64,000 nt of DNA from Sinomonas atrocyanea (GTDB lineage Bacteria > Actinomycetota > Actinomycetes > Actinomycetales > Micrococcaceae). Location: assembly GCF_030811715.1 (NCBI RefSeq), contig NZ_JAUSRH010000007.1, positions 124,001 through 188,000 on the forward strand, read 5' to 3'. Both the position numbers and the translations under genes were made by a program. The notes below the pieces were generated by a model that ran no database searches, had not been told where the DNA came from, and saw only the letters and a program-made list of their open reading frames with translations. This document shows, piece by piece, positions 3,691 through 54,962 of the stretch. How positions within the stretch are numbered: position 1 is the stretch's first letter; each line of letters opens with the position of its first letter.

Positions 3691-5760
3691 TCAGGCCTTG
3701 CCCAGGCGGGCAGCGGCATGCTGGGTGATGCGGTCGAGCATGACTCCGAGTGCGGTGATGGCGATGCCGGCTGCGAGGCCCTTGCCGAAGAGCTGGCTCT
3801 GGGAGAAGCCGGAGACCACGAGGTAGCCGAGGCCCCCGCCTCCGACCAGTCCGCCGACCACGACCATGGACAGGACATACAGCAGGCCCTGGTTGGCGGC
3901 GAGGACCACGGCTGCCCGGGACATGGGCAGCTGGACCTTGGCGACCATCTGCCAGGAAGTGGTCCCCATCGATTCCGAGGCCTCGACCGTTACCGGCGAG
4001 ACTCCGCGGATGCCGTCGGCGACGAGCTTGGTGGCGATCGGCACCCCGTAGGCGACCGCGGCAACGATCGCAGTGAACCGGGTGGGCCCGAACAGGGCCA
4101 GGGCAGGGACGAGGTACACGAAGGACGGGATGGTCTGGAACGCGTCCAGCACCGGCCGCACGATCGAGTCGACCATCCTGCTGCGCCCCATCAGCACGCC
4201 CACGATGACGGCGGCGATGACCACGAGGAAGGTCGCCACGAGCGTGGTCGCGAGGGTCTTCATGCTCTCGTTCCAGAGCCCGGTGCCGAGGATGACCGCC
4301 TCGCACACGAGCGTCGCTGCGCAGGCGCGCCGGCCGCCCAGGGCGAAGGCGATGCCGAGCAGCACGAGGGCCATGGCCCACCAGGGCGACTGCGCCAGGA
4401 GGGATTCGAGCGGGTTGACCAGGAGGGCGGTGACGGCCTCCTTGAGCCACTCCGTGAATCCGGAGAACGTGTGGACGGTCCAGTCGGTGGCCGCGGAGAC
4501 GGCCTGGGCGAGCGGTCCGCCGAGGTCCGGCGAGGAGGGGAACTTCGCGAGCGCGAGGTAGTTGTGCGAGAGCCAGATGGCCGCGGCCGCGACGGCGGCA
4601 CCGACGATGGCGGCGGCACGTCGTCCCTTGGGCCCGCGGAGCCCCCCGCTGCGGGAGCCGCGCTGGACGCGGGCCTCGATCCCGGAGCGCTCGGAGGCGG
4701 CCGTCGTCGTGCGGTCGAGCATGATCGCCATGAGGACGATCGCGAGGCCCGAGACGAAGGCGGAGCCGACGTCGAGCGACTGCAGCGACTGCAGCACTGG
4801 CTGCCCGAGGCCGGGACCGTTGATGAGGGCGGCGATGGTTGCCATGGACAGGGCTGCCATCGTGCACTGGTTGATGCCGACGACGATGGTGCGCCGCGCC
4901 ATGGGCAGCTGCACCTTAGTCAGCGTCTGCCACGCCGTCCCGCCCATCGACGTGACGGCCTCGAGCGTGGTGGGCGAGACGTTGCGGATGCCGTGCTCGG
5001 TGATGCGCACCAGCGGCGGGAGCGAGTAGATGATCGTCGTGACGATCGCCGAGGCAGGACCGATCCCGAAGACGAGGGCCAACGGGGCAAGGTAGGCGAA
5101 CGAGGGCAGCGTCTGCGCCAGGTCCAGCAGCGGAGAGAGGACCGCGGAGACGCGGTGGCTGCGCGCCATCCAGATCCCCAGCGGGGGCCCGACCACGGCG
5201 CACAGGCCGACGGCGACGAAGGTCACGATGAGCGTGTCGATGCTCTGCTGCCAGTAGCCGAAGAACCCGAACAGCAGCACGCAGGCGGCCACGAGGATCA
5301 TCGAGCGGACGCCCGCGAGCACGAACGCCAGCCAGGTGAGCAGGGCAACGACCCCGAGCCAGCCGACCTCGGGCACCGGGCGCAGGGCGGAGGGCTGGCT
5401 CAGGAGGTGCTGCAGGAAGGCCACGGCGCCGTTGAGGCCGTCGGTGATGGGCTGCAGCACCGAGGTGAAGAAGGGCGACTGGCTGCGGGCGGCGTCGAAG
5501 CCGTCGCGGAGGCCGTTGAGCCACAGGTGGACGTCGGTCTTGTCCGCCCCGCCGAGCTCAAGGGTCTGGGTCCCCCGGAAGAGGCCCCACAGCACGAGCC
5601 AGGCCACCGCGACGCCGGCCAGCAGCACCGGACGCCAGTGGCGGCGGACGAGGGCTGCTGCGGATGTCGGCGGCCGGGTCGCCGGCTCCGCGCCCCGCTC
5701 GCGCGCGCCCGCGGGGGGTGCGGCGGCGGTCTTGGCGCGGTCGGTCGCGACGGTACTCAT
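3691..5760 (-). CDS. proW: Glycine betaine/choline ABC transporter permease, tandem-duplicated fusion
   Basis: 689-residue permease made of two homologous ProW-like halves in one chain, roughly residues 1-350 and 360-689. Each half has its own EAA-type cytoplasmic loop: [19 protein letters not shown] then KVQLPMARR in the first, [19 protein letters not shown] then KVQLPMSRA in the second. Each is preceded by the same [18 protein letters not shown] motif. The fused chain would replace the usual homodimer. Its ATG overlaps the proV stop (ATGA), so translation is coupled. The halves have diverged considerably, so the duplication is old. The first 30 residues are polar and probably cytoplasmic. 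Confidence 0.9.
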
Positions 5761-6869
5761 GCTGCACCGCCCTGGCCGGCCGCAGCGGAATCCTCCTCGG
5801 CCACGACCACGCGCAGGATGTCGTCGTCGTCGACCACGCCGAGGAAGCGCTCTCCGTCGTAGACCCGGACGGGCAGCGAGGACTGCAGCACCTGCCTGGC
5901 GGCGTCGCGCACCACGCAGTCCGCCTGCATCACGGGTCCCTCGAGCGATTCCTCGGACCGCGGGGGACGGACGACGTAGCGCAGGGTGAGCACGTGGGAG
6001 CGGGGGACGTCGGAGACGAAGTCGCGCACGTAGTCGTCCGCGGGGTGCGCCACGACCTCGGCCGGCGTGCCGATCTGGACGATCTCGCCGTCGCGCATGA
6101 TGAGGATGCGGTCGCCGAGCTTGAGCGCCTCCTGCAGGTCGTGGGTGATGAAGACCATCGTCTTCCCCACCTCCTCGTGCAGGCGGCACACCTCGTTCTG
6201 CATGTCCCGGCGGATGAGCGGGTCCAGCGCCGAGAATGGCTCGTCGAAGAGCAGCACCTGCGGATCCACCGCCAGTGCCCGGGCCAGGCCCACACGCTGC
6301 TGCATGCCGCCCGAGAGCTGGTCGGGGAACGAGTTCTCGTAGCCGGCCAGGCCCACGAGGTCGACCATCTCCTGGGCCCGGGCGAGCCGGGCGGCCTTGC
6401 CCTCGCCGCGGACTTCGAGGCCGTAGGCGACGTTGTCGAGCACCTTCCGGTGCGGGAGGAGGCCGAACTGCTGGAACACCATGGCCATGTGGTTGCGCCG
6501 CAGGGCGCGCAGCTTGGCCTTGCTCGCACAGGTGACGTCCTCGCCGTCGATCCTCACGCTTCCCGCGGTGGGCTCGATGAGCCGCGTCAGCAGCCGCACG
6601 AGGGTCGACTTCCCGGAGCCCGAGAGCCCCATGACCACGAAGACCTCGCCCGGGGCGACCTCGAAGGAGACGTCCTTGACTGCGGCAAGGCAGCCGGTCT
6701 TGCTCTGCAGCTCTTTCCGAGTCAGGTGCTCGTCGGGCGTGCCGATGATCTTGTCGGCCTTCGCACCGAAGATCTTCCACAGGCCCTCGACCTTCAGGGC
6801 CGGCTCGGTGGAGTCCGCGCGGCGTGCCGCGCGGCGGGCAGTTTCGGGGTCCAGGGTCGGGGCGCTCAT
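5757..6869 (-). CDS. proV: Glycine betaine/choline ABC transporter ATP-binding protein (ProV type with CBS region)
   Basis: 370-residue ATPase. Walker [10 protein letters not shown] is at 81-89, signature LSGGMQQR at 185-192 and Walker B LLFDEP at 206-211. The stretch of about 40 residues before the ATPase core is typical of ProV/OpuAA. The tail after about 285 has the length and [17 protein letters not shown] pattern of a CBS module, which in this family senses ionic strength. A strong ribosome site (GAGGAGG) precedes the ATG, which overlaps the betA stop by 4 bp. Energises uptake through the fused permease and ProX. Confidence 0.93.
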
Positions 6870-8545
6870 GATGCCTCCTCGAGTTGGCTGAGCGGGGTGT
6901 GGCGGTAGAAGGGTTCGCGTTCGGCCGGCAGCTCCCGGCCGAGGATGAGGTCCGAGGCCTTCTCCGCGAGCATCATCACGGGAGCGAAGATGTTGCCGTT
7001 GGTCACATACGGCATGGCGGAGGCGTCCGCGACGCGCAGCCCCTCGGTGCCGTGGACCTTCATGGTGTGGGGGTCCACGACGGCCATCGGGTCCGAGGCT
7101 GGGCCCATCTTCGCCGTGCACGAGGGGTGCAGGGCCGTCTCGGCGTCCCGGGCGACCCAGTCGAGGATCTCCTGGTCGGTCGTGACCGACGGGCCCGGAG
7201 AGATCTCGCCGCCGTTGAACGGTGCCATGGCCGGCTGCCGGAGGATCTCGCGGGAGACGTTGACGGCCTCGATCCATTCGCGGCGATCGTTCTCCGTCGA
7301 GAGGTAGTTGAACAGGATCGAGGGGCGCGCCGACGGATCCGCCGAGCGGATCCTGAGGTGACCGCGCACATCCGAGTACATGGGCCCGACGTGCACCTGG
7401 AAGCCATGCTCGACCTCGGCCTTCTTCCCGTCGTAGCGCACTGCTACGGGGAGGAAGTGGTACATGAGGTTCGGGTACGCGACGTCGTCGTTCGAGCGCA
7501 CGAACCCGCCGCCCTCGAAGTGGTTCGTCGCCGCTGGGCCCTTGCGCCCCAGCAGCCACTCGAGTCCGATGAAGGGCATCCGCCAGAGGTCGAGCGAAGG
7601 CTGCTGGGAGACGGGCTGCAGGCAGGCGTGCTGGATGTAGACCTCGAGGTGGTCCTGGAGGTTCTCACCGACGCCGGCGAGGGCGACGCGCGGGGCGATG
7701 CCGACCGACCGGAGGTGGTCCGGATCGCCGATGCCGGCGAGCTGGAGCAGCTGCGGGGTGTTGAAGGCGCCGCCGCAGAGGATGACCTCTCCCGCGCTCA
7801 CCGTGTGGCTCTGGCCGCCGCGGCGGTAGCTGACCCCCGTGGCGCGCGTTCCCTGGAACTCGATCCCGGTCACGGTCGCGAGCGTCTTCACCGTGACGTT
7901 GGGCCGCTTCCGGGCGGGGCGAAGGTAGCCGCGCGACGCCGAGTAGCGCTCACCCTTGTGGACGTTGCGGTCGAACGGGCCGAAGCCTTCCTGGCGGTAG
8001 CCGTTGACGTCCTCGGTGCGCGGGTAGCCGGCTTGGACGGCGGCGTCGAAGAACGCCTGGAACAGCGGGTTGGTGGCCGGCCCGCGCTCGAGGATGAGCG
8101 GGCCCTCATGGCCCCGGAAGGGGTCCTCTGGGGATGCGGCGAGGGCGTTCTCCATGCGCTTGAAGTAGGGGAGGCAGTGGGCGAAGTCCCAGCTCTCCAT
8201 GCCGGGATCCGCACCCCAGCGCTCATAGTCCAGCGGGTTCCCGCGCTGGAAGATCATCCCGTTGATCGAGCTCGAGCCGCCCAGGACCTTGCCGCGGGCG
8301 TGCGCGACCCTGCGCCCGCCCATGAACGGCTCCGGATCGGACTCGTAGCGCCAGTCGTAGAACGGGTTGCCGCTCGGGAAGGTGAGGGCGGCGGGCATCT
8401 GGATGAAGAGGTCCCAGGGGTAGTCGCTGCGGCCGGCCTCGAGCACGAGCACCGTACGGTCACCGTCGGCGCTGAGCCTGTCAGCGAGGACGGACCCGGC
8501 GCTTCCGCCGCCGACGATCACGTAGTCGTACGTCGCGGCCGTCAC
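6866..8545 (-). CDS. betA: Choline dehydrogenase (GMC flavoprotein oxidoreductase)
   Basis: 559-residue GMC-family flavoenzyme, expected to oxidise choline to betaine aldehyde. The N-terminal FAD-binding motif is [18 protein letters not shown] (from residue 8), followed by [13 protein letters not shown]; the C-terminal part holds the active-site stretch HPSCTAKMG and the closing [16 protein letters not shown]. The start is a GTG at 8545 that overlaps, as GTGA, the stop of a 22-codon reading frame with a far better ribosome site. Either that short frame is a translated leader feeding ribosomes to betA, or a frameshift has split the original N-terminus. First major gene of the betaine operon. 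Confidence 0.9.
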
Positions 8546-40489: not shown

Positions 40490-41287
40490 TCACGGGATCA
40501 GGTACTCCGAGTCGGGCACATCACTGATGAACATGTATCCGGGGGCGTGGGTGATCGCGAAGGGTGGCTTGGAGGCCAGCAGTGCGGCCTGCGGGGTGAC
40601 GCCGCACGCCCAGAACACCGGGACGTCGCCGGGCGCGGGCGCGACCGCGTCCCCGTAGTCGGGGGCTGCCAGATCGGCGATGCCGAGGGCCGCCGGATCG
40701 CCCACATGGACCGGGGCTCCGTGGACCGCGGGCATCCGGGCACTGAGCCGGACCGCAGTGTCGACGAGGTCCTCCGGGACATACCGCATCGAGACGACCA
40801 TCGGCCCGTGCATCCGGCCCGCAGGGCGGCATTCGATCGCCGTCCGATACATGGAGACGTTCCTGCCCTGATCGACATGCCTGAGGGGAATGCCGGCCTC
40901 GACCAGCGGCGACTCGAACGTGAAGCTGCAGCCGATCAGGAAGGTCACGAGGTCGTCGCGCCACACGTCGACCACCTCGGCCGGCTCCTCGTCGAGGTGG
41001 CCGTCGCGCCACACACGGTAGCGCGGAATGTCGGTGCGCAGGTCCGCGTCGGAGGCGAGCGCCGTCGTCGTCGCTCCCGGGTCTGTCACATCCAGCACGG
41101 GACAGGGCTTCGGGTTCCGCTGGCAGAACAGCAGCACGTCGTAGGCCCAGTCGGCGGGGACTGAGATCATGTTCAGCTGGGTGTAGCCGGCGGACCAGCC
41201 CGAGGTGGGCACCGCCAGGCCGCCGCGGAATTCCGTCCGGGCCTGGCGCGGGTGCGCGGACTGGGGGACTGCGTTCATGGTCGTCAA
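40490..41287 (-). CDS. D-glutamate cyclase family protein (DUF1445, 'putative hydro-lyase')
   Basis: 265 residues of the DUF1445/D-Glu_cyclase family: the opening ([28 protein letters not shown]) and later [24 protein letters not shown] and [12 protein letters not shown] are family blocks. Relatives of mammalian D-glutamate cyclase turn D-glutamate into 5-oxoproline, which fits the PxpABC genes just across the divergent promoter. A TTG start at 41287 is favoured by AGGAG seven bases upstream; the ATG at 41278 gives 262 residues. It follows the transporter gene by 34 bp. The reaction is inferred from family and context. Confidence 0.85.
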
Positions 41288-41321
41288 GGTGGGTCTCCTC
41301 TTCGGGCGATTCTTCGGGCGA

Positions 41322-42584
41322 TCAGGCGAGTTCGCGGTTCTTGGTCTCCGGCAGGCCCAGCAGCGCCAGGACGGCGATGCCATAGCCCGCGGCGCCGAAG
41401 ATCATGGCCCCTCCCACGCCCAGCGTCGTGGCGAGGAATCCCACGAGCGTGGGGAAGAACGCCCCGACGGCCCGGCCGAAGTTGTACGTGAACCCCTGGC
41501 CGGTGCCGCGGAGGTGAGCCGGGTAGAGCTCCGAGAGGAACGAGCCGAACCCGCTGAAGATCGCTGACGTGAAGAAGCCCAGGGGGAAGCCCAGGATGAG
41601 GACCAGCGTGCTGGCGCCGGCGGGGATGTTGACGTAGGCGAAGATGATCAGGGCCGACAGGACCGAGAAGAGCAGGAACGTCTTCTTCCGTCCAAGACGG
41701 TCGGTGAGGTACCCGCCGGAGACGTACCCGATGAAGGCCCCGGAGATGAGGAATGTCAGGTAGCCGCCCGTTCCCACCACGCTGAGGCCCCGATCGACCT
41801 TCAGATAGGTCGGGATCCACGAGGCCAGGGTGTAGTAGCCGCCCTGGACCCCGGTTGCCAGGAGTGAGGCGAAGAGCGTGGTGCGGCCCAACGGGCCGGT
41901 GAAGATGTCCCGGAAGCTGCCCCGCTTCTCGCTCGAGAGCCTCCGCTCCGTCGCCGCGTCGGCGTCCGTGACATTGCGGCGGAGGAACAGGAGCAGCACG
42001 GCCGGGAGCGCACCGGTCCAGAAGAGCACGCGCCAGGCCGTGGCCGCAGGAACGAAGCTGAACACCAGGGTGTAGACGAGGACCGAGAGGGCCCAGCCGA
42101 CCGCCCACGAGCTCTGGATGAACGCCACCGCGCGGCCGCGGTACTTCGGCTTGGCGTACTCGGCCACGAGGATCGCTCCCGTGGCCCACTCGCCGCCGAA
42201 GCCGAGTCCCTGGAGGGTGCGGAAGGCCAGCAGCTGCTCGAAGCTGCTGGCGAAGCCGCACAGGACTGTGAACAACGCGAAGGTGCCCACCGTGATCATG
42301 AGCGTCTTGGTGCGCCCGATGCGGTCGACCAGCACCCCAGCCAGCGCGCCGCCGATGGCCGACACGACCAACGTGACGGTCGTCAGGAGGCCGGCCTGGC
42401 CGGTCGAGAGGTGGAAGTAGGCGCCGATCGCGACGAGCGAGAGGGGCAGTACCTGGAAGTCGTAGGAGTCGAGGGCGTATCCGCCGAAGGCGCCGATCCA
42501 CGCCTTCCGGCCGCGCTCCCCGAGGGTGCGGTACCAGGCGAAGCGCCCAGTGTCGTCGCTGACCTGGTTCTCGACATCTGACAT
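41322..42584 (-). CDS. MFS transporter, organic-acid/amino-acid type
   Basis: 420 residues, 12 spans. [20 protein letters not shown] at span 1, [15 protein letters not shown] in the first cytoplasmic loop, and [23 protein letters not shown] in span 4-5 mark the aromatic/sialic acid-like symporter group. The final residues are short and polar. GAGGTTG precedes the ATG at 42584. Its promoter holds the GATTGTTGAACAATC-type operators, so it belongs to the 5-oxoproline regulon and may import 5-oxoproline, D-glutamate or a related acid. Confidence 0.88.
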
Positions 42585-42675
42585 GGCAACCTCACGATTT
42601 TTGAGGGGCGGACGCCCGGAGACTGTGCCGGGCGGCGCCACTGCGTCATCGCCCGAGGTACCCACCACAGTAGAG

Positions 42676-42770
42676 GTTTGTTCAACAATCTGTCCAGAGG
42701 TTTTCGTGACCCAGCTCACGCTCGAGCGGCGGGGGAGTCGGAACGAGCTGGGAAAGATTGTTGAACAATC
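42676..42770. promoter_or_regulatory. Two GntR operators between the MFS and pxpA genes
   Basis: GTTTGTTCAACAATC (42676-42690) and the perfect palindrome GATTGTTGAACAATC (42756-42770), 80 bp apart between divergent starts. Two further copies lie at 47761-47799 before the DUF969 operon. The GntR-family regulator at 47036 is the likely binder. Confidence 0.75.
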
Positions 42771-42820
42771 TGCTGTCATGATGCATGCTTGGATCACCAC
42801 CTCGTGAGACGGAGATCACC

Positions 42821-43576
42821 ATGGCAAGCATCGACCTCAACAGCGACGTCGGCGAGTCCTACGGCAACTGGACCTTCGGAGACGACGCCGCGATCTTCGA
42901 GAGCGTCTCGAGCGCCAACGTCGCCTGCGGCTTCCACGCCGGCGACCCGAGCGGCATCCGGGCCACGTGCGAGGCGGCGGCCGCGGCCGGCGTCGTGATC
43001 GGCGCGCACCCCGCGTACCGCGACCTCGCGGGGTTCGGCCGGCGCTTCATGGACGTGGCGCCGAAGGAGCTCATCGACGACGTCATCTACCAGATCGGCG
43101 CCCTCGAGGCCCTGGCCCGCTCGGCCGGCACCGAGGTCCGCTACGTCAAGCCGCACGGCGCGCTCTACAACACGATCGTGCACCACGAGGCCCAGGCGAA
43201 GGCGGTCGCGAAGGCCGTGGCCGAGGCGGCCCCGGGCCTGCCGCTGCTCGTCCTGCCGAACTCCGAGATCCAGCGCGCCGCCGAGGCCGCGGGCCTGCGC
43301 ACCGTCACCGAGGCGTTCGCCGACCGCGCCTACACCCCCGAGGGCACCCTCGTCTCGCGGCGCGAGCCGGGCTCGGTGCTGCACGACCTCGACGGAATCG
43401 TGGACCACGTGCTGCGCATCCTCGACGGCAAGGTCCAGGCCATCGACGGCTCGATCGTCCGCATCGCGGCGGACAGCATCTGCGTCCACGGGGACACCCC
43501 GGGCGCCGTCGCCATGGCCGCCCGCGTCCGGGCGGCGGTGGCCGAGGCCGGCGTCGGGATCGCGAGCTTCGCATGA
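42821..43576 (+). CDS. pxpA: 5-oxoprolinase subunit PxpA (LamB/YcsF family)
   Basis: 251 residues. [15 protein letters not shown] and [20 protein letters not shown] are the family opening; [13 protein letters not shown] and [13 protein letters not shown] carry conserved His/Lys residues. PxpA acts with PxpB and PxpC to open 5-oxoproline to glutamate using ATP. Start ATG at 42821 with GGAG upstream. Overlaps the pxpBC start by 4 bp (ATGA), so the subunits are made together. Confidence 0.93.
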
Positions 43577-45249
43577 CCGCCCACGCGGCCGCGGTCCAGA
43601 ACCCCGTCCTCGGCCTCCGCCCCGCCGGCGACCGCGCCGTCCTCGTCGAGCTGCGCACCCTCGGCGCCGTCCTGGCGCTGACCTCCAAGCTCGCCGCCGC
43701 CCAGCACGCGGGGGACCTCGAGGTCGTCGACGTGGTCGCCGCCGCGACCACGGTGCTCATCGTCGCCGCCTCCCCCGACGCCGTGGCCCGGGCGGCCGCC
43801 TACGTGCGGGCCCTCCACCTCGAGGACGCCGAGCGCGCGCCCGGCCGGCTCGTGCAGATCGAGACGGTCTACGACGGCGCCGACCTGGAGGAGGCCGCGC
43901 GCCTCACCGGGCTCTCGCCGGAGGCGCTCGTGGCCGCGCACAGCGGGGCCGTGTGGGACGCGGCGTTCGGCGGCTTCGCGCCCGGGTTCGCCTACCTGAC
44001 GCACGACGGCGCCCCGTCCGTCCCGCGGCGCTCCTCGCCGCGCACCGTGGTCCCCGCAGGATCCGTGGCCCTCGCGGGCACGTACTCGGCCGTGTACCCC
44101 GGGGAGTCGCCGGGCGGGTGGCAGCTGATCGGGCGCACCGACGCCGTGATGTGGGACCTCTCCCGCGAGGACCCCGCGCTCGTGGCGCCCGGCGACCGCG
44201 TGCAGTTCGTGCCGGTCCGGGCGTCCGCCGCCCTCGCCTCACCCTCGTCCGCCGCCGGCGGGAACGCACCGGAGGCGAGGGCGCGCGCGGAGGCAGGGCT
44301 CGTCGTCGTGCGCCCTGGCCTGCAGACCACGGTGCAGGACGCGGGGCGCCCCGGCCGCGCGGCGCTCGGCGTGAGCCCCGCTGGGGCGCTGGACCGCGGT
44401 GCGCTGCGGCGTGCCAACCGCATGGCCGGCAACACCCCGGATGCGGCCGGGCTCGAGGTGCTCCTCGGCGGGCTCGAGCTGCGCGCCGAGCGGGACCAGG
44501 TGCTCGCCGTGACCGGCGCCCGCGTCCCGCTGCGCATCATCCCGCCCGATGGCGCACAGGGACATGACCCCTCAACGCAGGGACATGACCCCTCACGAGG
44601 GAGGGAGGCGCCGCTGGATGCCCCGTTCGCCCTCCTGGCCGGGGAGACCCTCGCCGTCGGCGCGCCGACCCGCGGGCTGCGCACCTACGTCGCCGTACGC
44701 GGCGGCCTCGAGGCCGAGCGCGTGCTCGGCAGCGCCTCCACCGACACGCTCTCCGGGATCGGCCCCGCCCCGCTCGCGGCCGGGGACGCCCTCGCCGTGG
44801 CCCCGCCCCGCGGCGCGCACGTCGTGGGGCTGCCCGAGGTCCCCCCGCGGCTCCCGGACCCCGCCACGCCCACCGAGCTGCGCGTGCTCCCCGGGCCCCG
44901 GCAGGACTGGTTCACCGACGCGTCAGTGCGGGCCTTCTTCGAGCAGGAATGGACGGTCACGGCGCAGTCGAACCGCGTGGGCGTCCGGCTCGACGGCGCC
45001 CCGCTCGAGCGCGCCCGCGACGGCGAGCTCACGAGCGAGGGCACCGCGCGCGGCGCCATCCAGGTCCCCGCGAGCGGCCTGCCCGTCCTGTTCCTGGCCG
45101 ACGCCCCGGTGACCGGCGGGTACCCGGTGATCGGCGTCGTCGTCAGCGCCGACCTCGACCTCGCGGCCCAGCTTCCCCCCGGCGCAATGGTGCGCTTCGT
45201 CCGCCAGCCCGGCGCCCCCACGACCCCAGAAGGAAATGCCCATGCTTAA
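43573..45249 (+). CDS. pxpBC: 5-oxoprolinase PxpB-PxpC fusion
   Basis: 558 residues joining PxpB (about 1-225, KipI-like: [39 protein letters not shown]) and PxpC (about 235-558, KipA-like: [17 protein letters not shown] and [11 protein letters not shown]). Usually separate in E. coli and Bacillus. Residues about 328-342 ([15 protein letters not shown]) are an in-frame insertion made of a dispersed 21-bp repeat, placed between two beta strands of PxpC. The ATG overlaps pxpA; the end overlaps the biotin carboxylase start. Confidence 0.93.
44557..44598 (+). repeat. Two copies of a 21-bp repeat inside pxpC
   Basis: Two tandem units containing GGGACATGACCCCTCAA/C with a 21-bp period. The same unit appears six times at 54819-54962 between genes. 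The insertion adds 14 residues without breaking the frame. Best seen as a dispersed intergenic repeat that has invaded a coding sequence. Confidence 0.8.
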
Positions 45250-46999
45250 GGTCCTCATCGCCAACCGCGGCGAGATCGCCGTCCGGATCGCCCGCGCGTG
45301 CGACGACGCCGGGCTGGCCAGCGTCGCCGTCTACGCCGACCAGGACGCGGACGCCCTGCACGTCGAGGCGTGCACCGAGGCGTACGCGCTCGGCGGCACC
45401 GCACCCGCCGAGACGTACCTCGACATCGAGAAGCTCCTCGCCGTCGCGGAGCGCTCCGGCGCCGACGCCGTGCACCCCGGCTACGGGTTCCTCTCCGAGA
45501 ACGCCGGCTTCGCCCAGGCCGTCCTCGACGCCGGCCTGACCTGGATCGGCCCGTCCCCCGCCACCATCCGGCTCCTGGGGGACAAGGTCAGCGCCCGCGA
45601 GGTCGCCGTGCGCGCCGGTGCGCCGCTGGCCCCGGGCAGCGACGGCCCCGTCGCGAGCGCCGAGGAGGTGCGCGCCTTCGCGGTGGAGCACGGACTCCCG
45701 GTGGCGATCAAGGCCGCGTTCGGCGGCGGCGGCCGCGGCCTCAAGGTCGCCCGCGCGATGGAGGAGATCGAGGAGGCCTTCGACTCGGCGGTCCGCGAGT
45801 CCCGCGCGGCCTTCGGGCGCGAGGAGTGCTTCGTCGAGAAGTTCCTCGACCGGCCCCGGCACGTCGAGGCCCAGGTCCTCGCGGACACGCACGGCAACGT
45901 GATCGTGGTCGGCACCCGCGACTGCTCCCTCCAGCGCCGCCACCAGAAGCTCGTGGAGGAGGCCCCCGCGCCGTTCCTCACCCCCGAGCAGCGCGAGCGC
46001 ATCCACTCCTCGGCGAAGGCGATCTGCCGCGAGGCCGGGTACGTCGGGGCGGGCACGGTCGAGTACCTCCTCGACAGCCAGGGCACCATCAGCTTCCTCG
46101 AGGTCAACACGCGCCTGCAGGTCGAGCACCCCATCACCGAAGAGACCTCGGGGATCGACCTTGTCGCGGCGCAGCTCGCGGTTGCCGACGGCCACGTGCT
46201 GCCCACCCTCGAGGACCCGGAGCCGCGCGGCCACTCGATCGAGTTCCGCATCAACGCCGAGGACCCGGGCCGGGGCTTCCTCCCCGCCCCCGGCACCATC
46301 GAGCGCTTCGCCCCGCCCGCCGGTCCGGGCATCCGCGTGGACGCGGGCGTGCGGGACGGCATCACCGTCCCCGGCCAGTTCGACTCCCTCCTGGCCAAGC
46401 TCGTGGTCACCGGGGCAGACCGGCAGCAGGCGCTGCGCCGGGCCCGCCGCGCGCTGCGCGAGTTCGAGATCCGCGGCCTGCCCACGGTCCTGCCCTTCGA
46501 CCGCGCCGTCGTGGACTCCCCCGCCTTCGCCGCCGAGGACGGCGCGTTCGGCGTCTACACGACGTGGATCGAGTCCGAGTTCGCCGAGGAGCTCGCGGCC
46601 AGCCCCGAGTTCACCGCCCCGACCGCGCACGACTCCGGCCGCCGCACCTTCGCGATCGACCTCGACGGCCGCCGCATGACCCTCGGGCTGCCCGAGTCCC
46701 TGCTCGCCGGGCTCGCGGCCGGCGCCGGCGCTCCCGGCGCCCACCAAACCCGGGACTCCGCGGACGACGCCGCCGCCCCCTCCGCGGCGGACCTCACCGC
46801 CGCGATGGGCGGCACCGTGGTCAAGTGGCTCGTCGAGCCCGGCACCGAGGTCGAGGCCGGGGACGGCGTCGTGGTGCTCGAGGCCATGAAGATGGAGACC
46901 ACCGTGCAGGCCCACCGGGCCGGGACCGTCGGCGAGCGGGCCGCGGCGGCGGGCGACGCCGTCGTGCCCGGGACCGTGCTGACCACGATCGCCGGCTGA
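45242..46999 (+). CDS. Biotin carboxylase with fused biotin carrier domain
   Basis: 585 residues: biotin carboxylase (1-450; [13 protein letters not shown]-grasp [24 protein letters not shown]) plus a C-terminal biotinyl domain with Lys550 in EAMKMET. Architecture of acyl-CoA carboxylase alpha chains. No carboxyltransferase of the usual acyl-CoA type is near; instead it is translationally linked to pxpABC. PxpB/PxpC resemble allophanate hydrolase and biotin-linked enzymes, so a biotin-dependent role in 5-oxoproline opening is conceivable. ATG at 45242 has AGAAGG seven bases upstream; ATG 45236 has poor spacing. Confidence 0.9.
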
Positions 47000-47035
47000 G
47001 CGCAACGCCCCCTCGGGCGCCGATAGGCTGGCAGC

Positions 47036-47713
47036 ATGACGTCCGAGGGGGTCCTGACGAGCCTGCGCCGCGCCGCGGGGAACACGAAGCACGCCGAGAC
47101 GAGCTCGTGGGTCGCCGCGCAGCTGCGGCAGGCGATCGCCGATGGCCGCCTCGCCCCCGGCGCCAAGCTCGCCGAGGAGGAGCTGCGGGAGGCCCTCGGG
47201 GTCTCCCGCAACACCCTGCGCGAGGCGTTCGCGACGCTGACCACCGAGCGGGTCGTGACGCGCATCCCGAACCGGGGCGTCTTCGTCTCGCATCCCACGG
47301 CGGAGGACATCCGCGAGATCTACCGGGTGCGGCGGCTCGTCGAGCCGGGGGCGCTGCTGTGGTCTCCGGCGCAGCCCACGGACGGGCTGGCCGGCGTCGT
47401 CCGCGCCGCCCGGGCCGCGGCGGCGGCCGGCGACGTGGCCGCGATGGCGGGCGCGAACCAGGAGTTCCACCGCGGCATCGTCGCCAGGGCCGGCAGCGAG
47501 CGGCTCAGCGCGCTCATGGAGCAGGTCCTCGCCGAGATGCGCCTCGTGTTCGCCACGATGGGCGCCGACCCGCGCTTCCACGAGCCGTACGTCGAGGAGA
47601 ACGCCAGGATCCTCGCCCTCCTCGAGGCGGGCCGGAACGCGGAGGCGGCCGAGGCCATGGCCCGCTACCTCGACCGTGCGGAGCACCAGCTCCTCGACGC
47701 GGTCGGCGGCTGA
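47036..47713 (+). CDS. GntR-family (FCD) regulator of the 5-oxoproline regulon
   Basis: 225 residues. Winged helix at about 22-85 (WVAAQLRQAIADGRLAPGAKLAEEELREALGVSRNTLREAFATL) and an FCD domain with metal-ligand His in NQEFHRGIVARAG and a C-terminal AEHQLLDAV. TAGGCT six bases before the ATG suggests a leaderless transcript. It sits between the pxp genes and the DUF969/DUF979 operon, whose promoters share GATTGTTGAACAATC-like sites; it is the natural reader. Confidence 0.9.
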   Translation: MTSEGVLTSLRRAAGNTKHAETSSWVAAQLRQAIADGRLAPGAKLAEEELREALGVSRNTLREAFATLTTERVVTRIPNRGVFVSHPTAEDIREIYRVRRLVEPGALLWSPAQPTDGLAGVVRAARAAAAAGDVAAMAGANQEFHRGIVARAGSERLSALMEQVLAEMRLVFATMGADPRFHEPYVEENARILALLEAGRNAEAAEAMARYLDRAEHQLLDAVGG

Positions 47714-47760
47714 CGGAGCCCGCACGGCCGCCGTCTCCCCGCCGGAGGGGATCACCCACA

Positions 47761-47799
47761 GATTGTTCAACAAACCCCTTGCTTGATTGTTGAACAACC
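47761..47799. promoter_or_regulatory. Two GntR operators before the DUF969 operon
   Basis: GATTGTTCAACAAAC (47761-47775) and GATTGTTGAACAACC (47785-47799), ten bp apart (24-bp centre spacing), variants of the perfect palindrome at 42756. They lie just upstream of a GATATGCTCT stretch that can serve as a -10 region. Confidence 0.75.
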
Positions 47800-47886
47800 C
47801 GATATGCTCTAGCTCACAGCGCCGTCGGCGCGCACTCATCGGGGCCCTGTCGCAGGGCTCGTGCACCCCCACCGGAACGGACCACC

Positions 47887-48624
47887 ATGCTTGTACTCAT
47901 CGGGGTACTCCTGGTCATCGTTGGCTTTGCCATCCGACTGAACCCCCTCGTCGTCGTCACCGTGTCGGGCATCGTCACGGCGCTGCTCGGCGGCCTCAAC
48001 CCCCTCCAGATCCTCGAGGCCTTCGGCTCCGGATTCGCCAGCAGCCGCTCGGTGACGATCTTCGCGGCAGTGCTGCCCGTGATCGGCATCATCGAGTACT
48101 CCGGCCTCCAGGAGCAGGCCAAGAATCTCATCGGCAAGCTCGCCAAGCTCACCGCGGGCCGCGTGCTCCTCGCCTACCTCGCGATCCGCCAGCTCACCGC
48201 CGCGGTGGGCCTGACCACCGTGGGCGGCCACGCGCAGACCGTCCGCCCGCTCGTGTTCCCCATGGCCGAGGGCGCGGCGATGCGCCGCTACGGGCATGTG
48301 CCGGAGAAGGTCAAGGAGAAGATCAAGGGCCACTCGGCCGCCGCGGACAACGTGGGCGTGTTCTTCGGCGAGGACGTCTTCGTGGCCGTCGGCTCGATCC
48401 TCCTCATCACCACCTTCGTGGACACCACCTACCACCTGCACCTCGAGCCGCTCCAGCTCGCCCTCTGGGCCATCCCGACGGCGATCGCGGCCTTCCTCAT
48501 CCACGGCTTCCGGCTGCTGCGCCTCGACCGGGCGCTCGACCGCGAGTACGCCGGCGCCACCCGCGACGACGCGGACAGCACCGCGGCCGTCGACGCCACC
48601 ACCGAGCTGGGAGATGCCAAGTGA
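47887..48624 (+). CDS. DUF969 membrane protein (probable transporter subunit)
   Basis: 245 residues, about six hydrophobic segments: VLIGVLLVIVGFAIRLNPLVVVTVSGIVTALLGG, then VTIFAAVLPVIGIIEYSGLQEQA and LAYLAIRQLTAAVGLTTVGGHAQTVRPLV, typical DUF969. It is almost always paired with DUF979, as here (GTGA overlap). In Firmicutes the pair often sits beside pyroglutamyl-peptidase, which with the operators here suggests 5-oxoproline uptake. The last 30 residues are acidic. Confidence 0.87.
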   Translation: MLVLIGVLLVIVGFAIRLNPLVVVTVSGIVTALLGGLNPLQILEAFGSGFASSRSVTIFAAVLPVIGIIEYSGLQEQAKNLIGKLAKLTAGRVLLAYLAIRQLTAAVGLTTVGGHAQTVRPLVFPMAEGAAMRRYGHVPEKVKEKIKGHSAAADNVGVFFGEDVFVAVGSILLITTFVDTTYHLHLEPLQLALWAIPTAIAAFLIHGFRLLRLDRALDREYAGATRDDADSTAAVDATTELGDAK

Positions 48625-49589
48625 TCAACGTCGAAGCCGTCTACTGGCTCATCGGGGCCCTCTTCATCGCCTGGGCCTCGCTGATCGCCCGCGACGAGAA
48701 CCACCCGCACCGCGTGGGCGCGTCCTCCTTCTGGGGCCTTCTCGGCCTCTGCTTCTTCTACGGCACCTGGGTGTCCGCCGGGACCGCCCCCGCGTGGGTC
48801 CTCGGCGTCGCGGTCCTGGTCCTCGTGGCCCTCGCCGCCACCGGCCGCCTCAAGCACGGCCAGACCAGGACCTCCACCCCGGAGGAGAGGGTGCAGTACG
48901 CCGCGAAGTTCGGCAACCGGCTCTTCGTCCCGGCCCTCGCCATCCCGGTCGTGACCGTGGTCCTCGTCCTCCTGGCGCCCGTCCTGACCATCGGCAAGAC
49001 CCCCATCCTGGATCCCAAGAACACGACCCTCGTGGCCCTGGCCATCGGCGCGATCGTGGCGGCCGTCCTCGCCGTCGTGCTCCTGAAGCCGAAGAACAAG
49101 CTGAACCCGATCATCGAGAGCCGCCGCATCCTCGAGTCGATCGGCTGGGCCGCGCTCCTGCCGCAGATGCTCTCCACCCTCGGCATCCTCTTCACGAAGG
49201 CCGGCGTCGGCACCGCCGTCGGCACGCTCACCACGGCCGTGATGCCCAAGGGCTCGCTCATCGCCGGCGTGATCGTCTACTGCCTGGGCATGTTCATCTT
49301 CACCATCCTCATGGGCAACGGCTTCGCGGCGTTCCCGATCATGACGGCTGCGATCGGCTGGCCGGTCCTCGTCCAGCAGTTCCACGGCAACCCGGCCATC
49401 GTGTTCGCGATCGGCATGCTCGCGGGCTTCTGCGGAACCCTGTGCACCCCGATGGCCGCGAACTTCAACCTCGTCCCGTCCGCGCTGCTCGAGATGAAGA
49501 ACAAGTACGGCGTGATCACCGCTCAGGTCGGGACCGCGATCCCGCTGCTCGTGGTCAACACCGCCCTCATGTACTTCCTCGCGTTCTAG
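48621..49589 (+). CDS. DUF979 membrane protein (probable transporter subunit)
   Basis: 322 residues with nine to ten membrane segments: VEAVYWLIGALFIAWASLIARD at the start, GWAALLPQMLSTLGILFTKAGVGTAVG and LMGNGFAAFPIMTAAIGWPVL further on. GTG start overlaps the DUF969 stop. With DUF969 it would form a two-subunit permease; the substrate 5-oxoproline is proposed from regulon membership. Not characterised biochemically as far as I know. Confidence 0.87.
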   Translation: MINVEAVYWLIGALFIAWASLIARDENHPHRVGASSFWGLLGLCFFYGTWVSAGTAPAWVLGVAVLVLVALAATGRLKHGQTRTSTPEERVQYAAKFGNRLFVPALAIPVVTVVLVLLAPVLTIGKTPILDPKNTTLVALAIGAIVAAVLAVVLLKPKNKLNPIIESRRILESIGWAALLPQMLSTLGILFTKAGVGTAVGTLTTAVMPKGSLIAGVIVYCLGMFIFTILMGNGFAAFPIMTAAIGWPVLVQQFHGNPAIVFAIGMLAGFCGTLCTPMAANFNLVPSALLEMKNKYGVITAQVGTAIPLLVVNTALMYFLAF

Positions 49590-49609
49590 GCGCACCAAGA
49601 AAGGACCCC

Positions 49610-50692
49610 ATGGACCACGAGCCCTTCCCCGCAGCCCCGTTCCCCGACGCCGCACGGCGGTGCGCCGAGATCGTCCTGGACAACCTCGGCCGCCCCTACC
49701 CGTATGCGGCGCACCATGTGCGGCGCTCCGCCGAGGACACGGCCATGCCGCACGAGCTGCACCCCGCGTTCGGCACGTCCTTCGACTGGCACTCGTGCGT
49801 GCACATGCACTGGCTCGGGGTCAGCGTGCTGGACTCCGGCGCCCTGCCGGAGGAGGCCGCCGCCGAGCTCCGCGCGGCCCTCGGCGAGAACCTCACCGCG
49901 GAGAAGCTCGCCGTCGAGGCCGCCTACCTGGCCGCCAACCCCTCGTGGGAGCGGCCGTACGGGTGGGCCTGGCTCGTGCGCCTCGCCGCGGCCTGCTCCG
50001 GCTCGGACGACGCCGGCCTGCGCGCCTGGGGCGAGAACCTCGCCGGCTGCGTCGACACGGTCGCGGGCCTGGCCACCGCCTGGCTCGGCACCGCCGAGTA
50101 CCCCGTCCGGCACGGCCTCCACACCAACTCCGCGTTCGGGCTGGCCTGGATGGTCGACGCGTTCCGGGCCCTGGGCCGCACCGGCGCGGCCCGGGCCTGC
50201 GAGGCGGCCGCCCGCCGCTGGTTCGCCGACGACGCCGGCTGGGCCACCGAGTGGGAGCTGTCCGGCCAGGACTTCCTCTCCGCCGGGCTGTCCGAGGCGG
50301 ACCTCATGGCCCGCGTCCTGGCCCCCGAGGAGTTCGCCGCCTGGCTGGGCTGGTTCCTCCCGGACCTCGCCACGGGCTCGCGCATGCTCGCGCCCGTCGG
50401 CGTCGCCGACGAGACCGACGGCTACATGGTCCACCTGCACGGCCTGAACCTCAGCCGCGCGGGGCAGCTCGCCCGCATCGTCGCGGCCCTCCGCACCGCG
50501 CACGACGCCGCCGGCTCGCCGTCCGCGGCAGGCTCGCCCGAGCCGGTGCTCGCAGCAGCCGTGCAGCCCCTCTTCGCCGCCGGGCTCAGGGGGCTGGACA
50601 GCGGGGACTTCATGTCCACCCACTGGCTCGCGAGCTTCGCGTGGGACGCGGCCGAGTCGATCGAAGTGCTCGGGGAGCACGAGCCGGCCTGA
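49610..50692 (+). CDS. DUF2891 protein
   Basis: 360 residues, soluble. Family marks: RCAEIVLDNLGRPYPYAAHHV, HPAFGTSFDWHSCVHMHWLG, NPSWERPYGWAWLVRLA, and DFMSTHWLASFA. The many conserved His and Trp in an alpha/alpha-like layout suggest a hydrolase or lyase fold, but no reaction is established. It follows DUF979 by 20 bp with AAGGAC before the ATG. In this place other genomes encode pyroglutamyl-peptidase, so a role in releasing or handling 5-oxoproline is plausible. Followed by a strong hairpin. Confidence 0.87.
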   Translation: MDHEPFPAAPFPDAARRCAEIVLDNLGRPYPYAAHHVRRSAEDTAMPHELHPAFGTSFDWHSCVHMHWLGVSVLDSGALPEEAAAELRAALGENLTAEKLAVEAAYLAANPSWERPYGWAWLVRLAAACSGSDDAGLRAWGENLAGCVDTVAGLATAWLGTAEYPVRHGLHTNSAFGLAWMVDAFRALGRTGAARACEAAARRWFADDAGWATEWELSGQDFLSAGLSEADLMARVLAPEEFAAWLGWFLPDLATGSRMLAPVGVADETDGYMVHLHGLNLSRAGQLARIVAALRTAHDAAGSPSAAGSPEPVLAAAVQPLFAAGLRGLDSGDFMSTHWLASFAWDAAESIEVLGEHEPA

Positions 50693-54818: not shown

Positions 54819-54962
54819 GTTGTGGGGTCATCTCCCAGCGTTGTGGGGTCATCTCCCTCCGTTGTGGGGTCATCTCCCAGCGTTGTGGGGTCATGTCCCT
54901 GCGGCCGGGCGATGCCGACCGCAGGGACATGACTCCTCAACCTAGGGACATGACCCCTCAGC
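54819..54962. repeat. Array of 21-bp repeats, four plus two inverted
   Basis: Four tandem 21-bp units in one orientation (54819-54902, core GTTGTGGGGTCATCTCCC) and two in the opposite orientation (54921-54962, core GGGACATGACCCCTCA) around an 18-bp spacer. It fills the gap between the HTH-MurA gene and the quinone oxidoreductase gene. The unit equals the one inserted in pxpC at 44557. The whole can fold into a long stem. The gap holds no other gene. Confidence 0.85.

Follow-up and report, generated by a model that had tools for sequence, protein, structure and literature searches.

What do the nine genes at positions 40490 to 50692 of a 64,000-nucleotide stretch of Sinomonas atrocyanea DNA (GCF_030811715.1, contig NZ_JAUSRH010000007.1; the whole stretch is called the window below) do together, and how are they controlled? 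The analysis indicated, with a probability of about 0.88, that the locus is a PxpR regulon for the use of 5-oxo-L-proline, and the gene set very probably imports 5-oxoproline, a cyclised glutamate, and converts it to glutamate. This core reading is correct but already known from work of 2026 and from earlier proposals. What appears to be new is the control by PxpR over DUF969, DUF979, DUF2891 and a pair formed by a major facilitator superfamily (MFS) transporter and a DUF1445 protein, together with a dedicated biotin carboxylase. The literature base also comprised PMC6904757, PMC5339696 and PMC8683493.

PxpR operators and the pxp genes

The original prediction had placed four operators in two promoter regions of the locus. 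A motif scan of the window with up to three mismatches returned these same four places, at 42676-42690 (OP1), 42756-42770 (OP2, the perfect copy GATTGTTGAACAATC, 50 nt 5′ of pxpA), 47761-47775 (OP3) and 47785-47799 (OP4). The result showed eight strand matches against 0.14 expected, and none of 100 shuffles reached eight, confirming that the operators are beyond chance. When the whole draft genome (4.23 Mb, 27 contigs) was scanned with the pattern GATTGTTSAACAAWC and up to two mismatches, only the four places in the window were found, and the reversed-pattern control gave none. Read on the opposite strand, positions 42755-42771 equal the 17-bp PxpR site known from Corynebacterium glutamicum, AGATTGTTCAACAATCT, at 17 of 17 bases. 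In C. glutamicum, changing or deleting this site led to 6.5-fold derepression, and PxpR binds 5-oxoproline with a dissociation constant of 0.73 µM (PMC13274462). Judged by its sequence, the window operator is the PxpR operator; the idea of one GntR regulon for 5-oxoproline thus held at this locus and is already in print.

Domain matches confirmed the gene content that had been listed. By spacing and strand, the nine genes form three units: a leftward unit of MFS and DUF1445, a rightward unit of PxpA, a fused PxpB-PxpC, biotin carboxylase with biotin carboxyl carrier protein (BCCP) and a GntR-FCD regulator, and a further rightward unit of DUF969, DUF979 and DUF2891. PxpA (LamB/YcsF; 42821-43576, plus strand) scored 362 bits against NF003814, whose cut-off is 226. 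PxpB and PxpC are both present as domains but within one fused protein (43573-45249, plus strand; CT_C_D followed by CT_A_B), which passes the domain model TIGR00724 (251 bits, cut-off 230) and has its closest named relative in S. atrocyanea (88% identity). The PxpA, PxpB and PxpC domains are all found at the locus. The predicted GntR gene was also present, and its position could be corrected: PxpR, a GntR-FCD regulator assigned by domain match and operator co-occurrence, is encoded at 47036-47713 (plus strand), downstream of the biotin carboxylase within the pxpA unit and immediately preceding the second promoter region. The locus thereby combines a GntR-FCD regulator adjoining pxp genes with the 17-bp PxpR operator at a pxp promoter, as expected of a PxpR regulon.

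Two of the palindromes lie in the −35/−10 spacers of putative promoters that were read by eye. OP1 is within the putative MFS promoter (minus strand; −10 TACTGT at 42667-42672, 18 nt from a putative −35 TGGACA at 42691-42696), and OP4 is within the putative DUF969 promoter TTGCTT-18-TATGCT (47779-47808, plus strand). A sigma-70 scan at its thresholds found no promoter at the MFS or DUF969 start regions. The related loci L008, L009, L010, L012, L013 and L015 share TATGCT, the operator and a −35 of TTG type at the DUF969 promoter. This placement of operators in spacers would fit repression. The loci of relatives can also be read, from sequence, as natural tests of the association between site and gene. 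The second site left of pxpA occurs in only two of seven Sinomonas loci, the window and L010, which are those with MFS-DUF1445; it is absent from the other five, where no MFS-DUF1445 homologue was found left of pxpA. L010 lacks DUF969 and residues 1-209 of DUF979 and keeps the operator, the promoter and DUF2891. At L011 the operator precedes an MFS gene instead, and DUF969 was not found there. A separate arrangement, L146, has pxpABC, operator, PxpR, DUF969, DUF979, pyroglutamyl peptidase (Pcp) and DUF2891. Gene content, the sites, their co-occurrence with the regulator and their conserved position in relatives were all observed directly.

In a survey of 91 chosen loci, an operator with up to two mismatches was found in 34 of 39 PxpR-type loci (8/9 Micrococcaceae; 18/21 Microbacterium with PxpR; 8/9 Streptomyces-like, counting L145, which has operator sites and no PxpR match in the fetched stretch) versus 0 of 52 others. 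The latter comprised 10 Microbacteriaceae-type loci without PxpR (nine named Microbacterium plus L185, which groups with Microbacterium), 30 other pxp loci and 12 deep loci (including L181, with a weak PxpR match of 30% far from pxpA). The reversed pattern was found in 0 of the 91. L030, named Microbacterium and without PxpR, falls with Micrococcaceae in the PxpBC tree. The loci outside the survey include L041, L044, L055, L059, L062 and L064, which are short or incomplete, and also L049 and L050; L059 has an operator site. Exact copies of the 15-bp core were present in 21 of 396 genomes of the order. With one locus read per genome (second exact operators of G347 and G127 lie outside these 21), 18 of the 21 were within 1.5 kb of pxpA, pxpBC, pxpR or DUF1445, one preceded a PxpT-like Nramp gene, and two were beside genes without evident connection. 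These distributions suggest that the newly described PxpR switch is not limited to Corynebacterium but is also present in Micrococcales and Streptomyces-like genomes. At position 1501 of L067, an exact operator was seen beside an amino-acid permease and a band-7 protein, and at position 1501 of L071 beside a zinc alcohol dehydrogenase (genes read by eye); no pxp homologue was found within 1.5 kb of either.

In the mechanism that we propose, the ligand, the repression, the 5-oxoprolinase activity and the transport by DUF969/DUF979 are carried over from published homologues. When 5-oxoproline is absent, PxpR would occupy the four palindromes and block transcription; 5-oxoproline would bind PxpR and release it from the operators. 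DUF969/DUF979, and possibly also the MFS protein, would then import 5-oxoproline, which PxpA and the fused PxpB-PxpC would open to L-glutamate with the expenditure of ATP. The MFS-DUF1445 pair may feed in a related compound, DUF2891 may be an accessory enzyme, and the biotin carboxylase/BCCP may serve this pathway by a carboxylation for which PxpBC is the nearest candidate partner.

The pxp genes of Bacillus subtilis likewise comprise PxpA, PxpB, PxpC and a carrier, the carrier there being the Nramp-type YcsG. They reportedly were the subject of a 2017 study by Niehaus; their DUF1445 gene is ycsI, and they are not known to include a biotin carboxylase. The PxpR-pxpTABC system of C. glutamicum resembles the window locus in its GntR regulator, its operator palindrome, pxpABC and a carrier gene within the regulon (PMC13274462). 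It differs in that the window carrier is DUF969/DUF979 (plus MFS), that PxpB and PxpC are fused, that DUF1445, DUF2891 and biotin carboxylase/BCCP are added, and that four sites are present versus the one described there.

Several findings weigh against the reading of the locus as a PxpR regulon for 5-oxoproline use. In C. glutamicum the carrier under PxpR is of the PxpT type and not DUF969/DUF979 (PMC13274462). The PxpB and PxpC domains of the window are under the equivalog cut-offs (TIGR00370, 116 against 145.6 bits; NF045499, 203 against 500 bits), five of the 39 PxpR-type loci (L152, L019, L034, L039 and L161) have no operator, and four genomes with DUF969 have neither PxpA nor Hydantoinase_B-type proteins. 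Furthermore, the S. atrocyanea genome contains a second pxpABC, which lacks both a PxpR operator and a neighbouring biotin carboxylase, and two Hydantoinase_B matches (G000:C9:34711-36294 and G000:C11:16672-18267), so the pxp set of the window is not the sole possible oxoprolinase. One of these matches lies in a 1305-codon frame, comparable in size to a eukaryotic-type 5-oxoprolinase. The second pxpA-pxpB-pxpC (L007, G000:C4:78000-92000, about 4531-7050) is 32-44% identical, and its upstream open reading frame looks LysR-like by eye. A possible link to the fungal LamA/LamB of 2-pyrrolidinone use found no confirmation in a single literature search and in passages of one paper.

The dedicated biotin carboxylase

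The part of the locus that we regard as the most puzzling is the biotin carboxylase/BCCP (45242-46999, plus strand), which the original prediction listed without explaining. It raises a sharp question: why does a dedicated biotin carboxylase travel with a 5-oxoprolinase made of carboxyltransferase-fold subunits? The protein is complete by domain, with the expected biotinyl-lysine codon at 46889-46891 in MKMET, and three other Biotin_carb_C genes are present in the genome. Every one of the 29 pxp-linked rows has the BCCP signature (K/R)WL...MKMET, which none of the 15 AccA3-type rows shows; these have MKMEQ. The 29 rows, used for both tree and signature table, omit L035 and L038, which carry the same signature; besides the 15 AccA3-type rows (in which L188 and L210 represent one gene), the 19 other rows include two with MKMEH and two without MKM in the scanned part. 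The sequence thus points to a dedicated paralogue distinguished by a BCCP signature of its own, which is new here; in search listings of the open-licence literature, no paper was found on a link between biotin carboxylase and pxp genes.

One possible, if doubtful, explanation is that the protein serves as a co-regulated acyl-CoA carboxylase alpha subunit, pairing with an AccD encoded elsewhere. It is 59-60% identical to the genome's own AccA3-type protein, and in the tree the closer relative of the Micrococcaceae pxp-linked clade is AccA3 rather than the Microbacterium pxp-linked clade (99/93 support). However, the pxp-linked copies form two clades that are each apart from the AccA3-type clade, and the distinct surroundings of the biotin-lysine are common to two families. 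Among Microbacteriaceae-type loci, moreover, all 21 with PxpR also have the biotin carboxylase and all 10 lacking PxpR also lack it, a pattern that also argues against an acyl-CoA role; of the 21, 15 showed DUF1445, and of the 10, none. Mapping the biotin carboxylase onto the PxpBC tree, which carries a long-branch warning, needed eight changes, at least four of them forced by well-supported branches, and is consistent with repeated joint loss. Because the two pxp-linked clades do not unite, one shared origin of these genes is not shown.

It is unlikely that the biotin carboxylase/BCCP charges PxpBC with CO2 for a urea-carboxylase-like N-carboxylation, followed by hydrolysis by PxpA, which would replace or supplement phosphorylation. 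In favour of such a partnership, PxpB and PxpC are carboxyltransferase (CT)-fold domains, the gene stands within the pxp unit, no acyl-CoA carboxyltransferase was among the nine genes examined, and the MKMET signature and the separate clades set the pxp-linked copies apart from AccA3. In addition, six loci of family f42 have a different, separate biotin carboxylase beside DUF1445 and PxpA, five of them showing an AccB-type BCCP. The domain set of biotin carboxylase, BCCP with MKM and two CT domains is also that of urea carboxylase, although it is divided here between two proteins. On the other side, the CT residues conserved in urea carboxylase were not found: at the positions checked, the window PxpBC has PxpBC-type residues such as S488, W183 and R152 where urea carboxylase has D, Y and K, a comparison that does not identify catalytic residues. 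These residues are those of PxpBC proteins that occur without the biotin carboxylase. In ten Microbacteriaceae-type loci, pxpA-pxpBC are retained although no biotin carboxylase adjoins them, and the two pxp-linked clades are not one clade. C. glutamicum pxpTABC works although its operon has no such gene (PMC13274462), and ATP hydrolysis by PxpB/PxpC has been reported (PMC8453981).

A CT residue signature tied to the biotin carboxylase was considered and rejected: no column was common to urea carboxylase and all four biotin-carboxylase groups yet missing from the groups without the enzyme, and Microbacterium PxpBC proteins with and without it were alike at most compared positions. In five loci of family f34 (L166, L174, L177, L181 and L182), PxpA adjoins urea-carboxylase-like CT genes and a biotin carboxylase. 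In the tree, which carries a long-branch warning, their CT proteins join urea carboxylase at 100/99 support. Since the CT domains are urea-carboxylase-like and the stretches of these loci yielded no BCCP motif, they lend weak support. A broader proposition is that in some Micrococcales the biotin carboxylase/BCCP partners PxpB-PxpC in a biotin- and bicarbonate-dependent opening of 5-oxoproline, of its D form or of a different lactam that MFS-DUF1445 would supply, a route distinct from the ATP-only PxpABC; on this evidence it is rather improbable.

The DUF969/DUF979 permease and DUF2891

DUF969 (47887-48624, plus strand; PF06149, 285 bits) and DUF979 (48624-49589, plus strand; PF06166, 387 bits) are adjacent in the window and are predicted to be the two halves of a split permease of the IT superfamily, in which DUF979 has been placed as a single repeat that pairs with DUF969 (PMC11467057). 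The prediction that they transport 5-oxoproline appears right by analogy and had been published: the proposal was made earlier, and a Campylobacter jejuni strain without cj0552-cj0554 (DUF969, DUF979 and DUF2891, in the same order as here) fails to use 5-oxoproline, a result that its authors call preliminary (PMC12795558; structures 8ieu/8iev). In contrast to the window, no PxpR operator is mentioned in the available text of that paper, and the triple mutant does not separate the three genes. The control by PxpR over DUF969, DUF979 and DUF2891 in two lineages offers a clean test for these families in a soil genus.

Among 296 actinobacterial genomes, DUF969 was found in 7, DUF2891 in 9 and PxpA in 66; in the three genomes with both DUF969 and DUF2891, both adjoin pxpA. 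Pcp adjoins DUF979 in six of the seven DUF969 genomes, the exception being the window genome. In the four DUF969 genomes mentioned above (L141-L144; G470, G406, G669 and G608; family f35), DUF969-DUF979 adjoin Pcp, and since both PxpA and Hydantoinase_B matches are missing, the permease may export 5-oxoproline there. That the window pair is likewise an exporter or exchanger rather than an importer is very unlikely: the C. jejuni mutant did not use 5-oxoproline (PMC12795558), and the window pair shares its operators with PxpA-PxpBC.

DUF2891 (49610-50692, plus strand; PF11199) is a predicted all-helical, toroid-like protein. Its predicted model (pLDDT 87) gave query-normalised TM scores of 0.81-0.83 to the crystal structure of C. 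jejuni Cj0554 (8iev/8ieu). The next structural match was a GH76 enzyme (TM 0.44, E 0.011), which was too weak to assign a function. The protein is probably an enzyme, because many polar residues are invariant in 15 aligned proteins (D59, H61, H67, E114, R115, H171, N173, D221, H275, R283 and H338). Its assignment to the 5-oxoproline pathway held for the window, where it belongs to the regulon, but failed as a rule for the family: six of the nine actinobacterial DUF2891 genomes are without DUF969 and the neighbours vary, implying that DUF2891 also occurs outside this pathway. The ten neighbours in these six genomes (an amidase, MaoC, a kinase, two ABC, two DUF72, a beta-lactamase and two unmatched genes) were too varied to guide a functional assignment.

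The MFS-DUF1445 pair and the source compounds

The MFS transporter (41322-42584, minus strand; domain match) is the first gene of its unit and is followed by the DUF1445 protein (40490-41278, minus strand; PF07286 'D-Glu_cyclase', NCBIfam 'putative hydro-lyase'), whose start we set near 41278 because a frame extended to 41383 would run into the MFS gene. DUF1445 is 90% identical in L010 and 55-69% in the other loci compared. In five Streptomyces-like loci (L161, L165, L167, L173 and L179), the pair stands beside pxpABC with identities (DUF1445 67-69%, MFS 69-71%) above that of PxpA (53-57%), suggesting that MFS-DUF1445 is part of the pathway.

A conversion of D-glutamate into L-glutamate by DUF1445 and PxpABC, as originally predicted, is highly improbable and unsupported. 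In its favour, Pfam names DUF1445 D-Glu_cyclase, and the family frequently stands with pxp genes and an MFS. However, the characterised mouse cyclase combines DUF1445 with DUF4392 and yields 5-oxo-D-proline, so that the route does not follow for the window protein, which matches PF07286 only. None of the nine genes was identified as racemising; in five of seven Sinomonas loci, pxpA-pxpBC are retained and neither DUF1445 nor a close homologue of the MFS gene was found left of pxpA; and the C. glutamicum work on PxpR and PxpABC used 5-oxo-L-proline (PMC13274462). Pyroglutamyl compounds, the other suggested source, were likewise unsupported, no PF01470 peptidase having been found in the genome.

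A dispersed repeat, CAGGGACATGACCCCTC, was observed at window positions 44557-44594 and 54885-54959, often with 21-bp head-to-tail spacing. With up to one mismatch, it has 33 forward and 34 reverse matches genome-wide, against none for the reversed control. One pair of repeats lies in frame inside the PxpC part of the fused protein, and similar protein stretches are present in L010 and L011.

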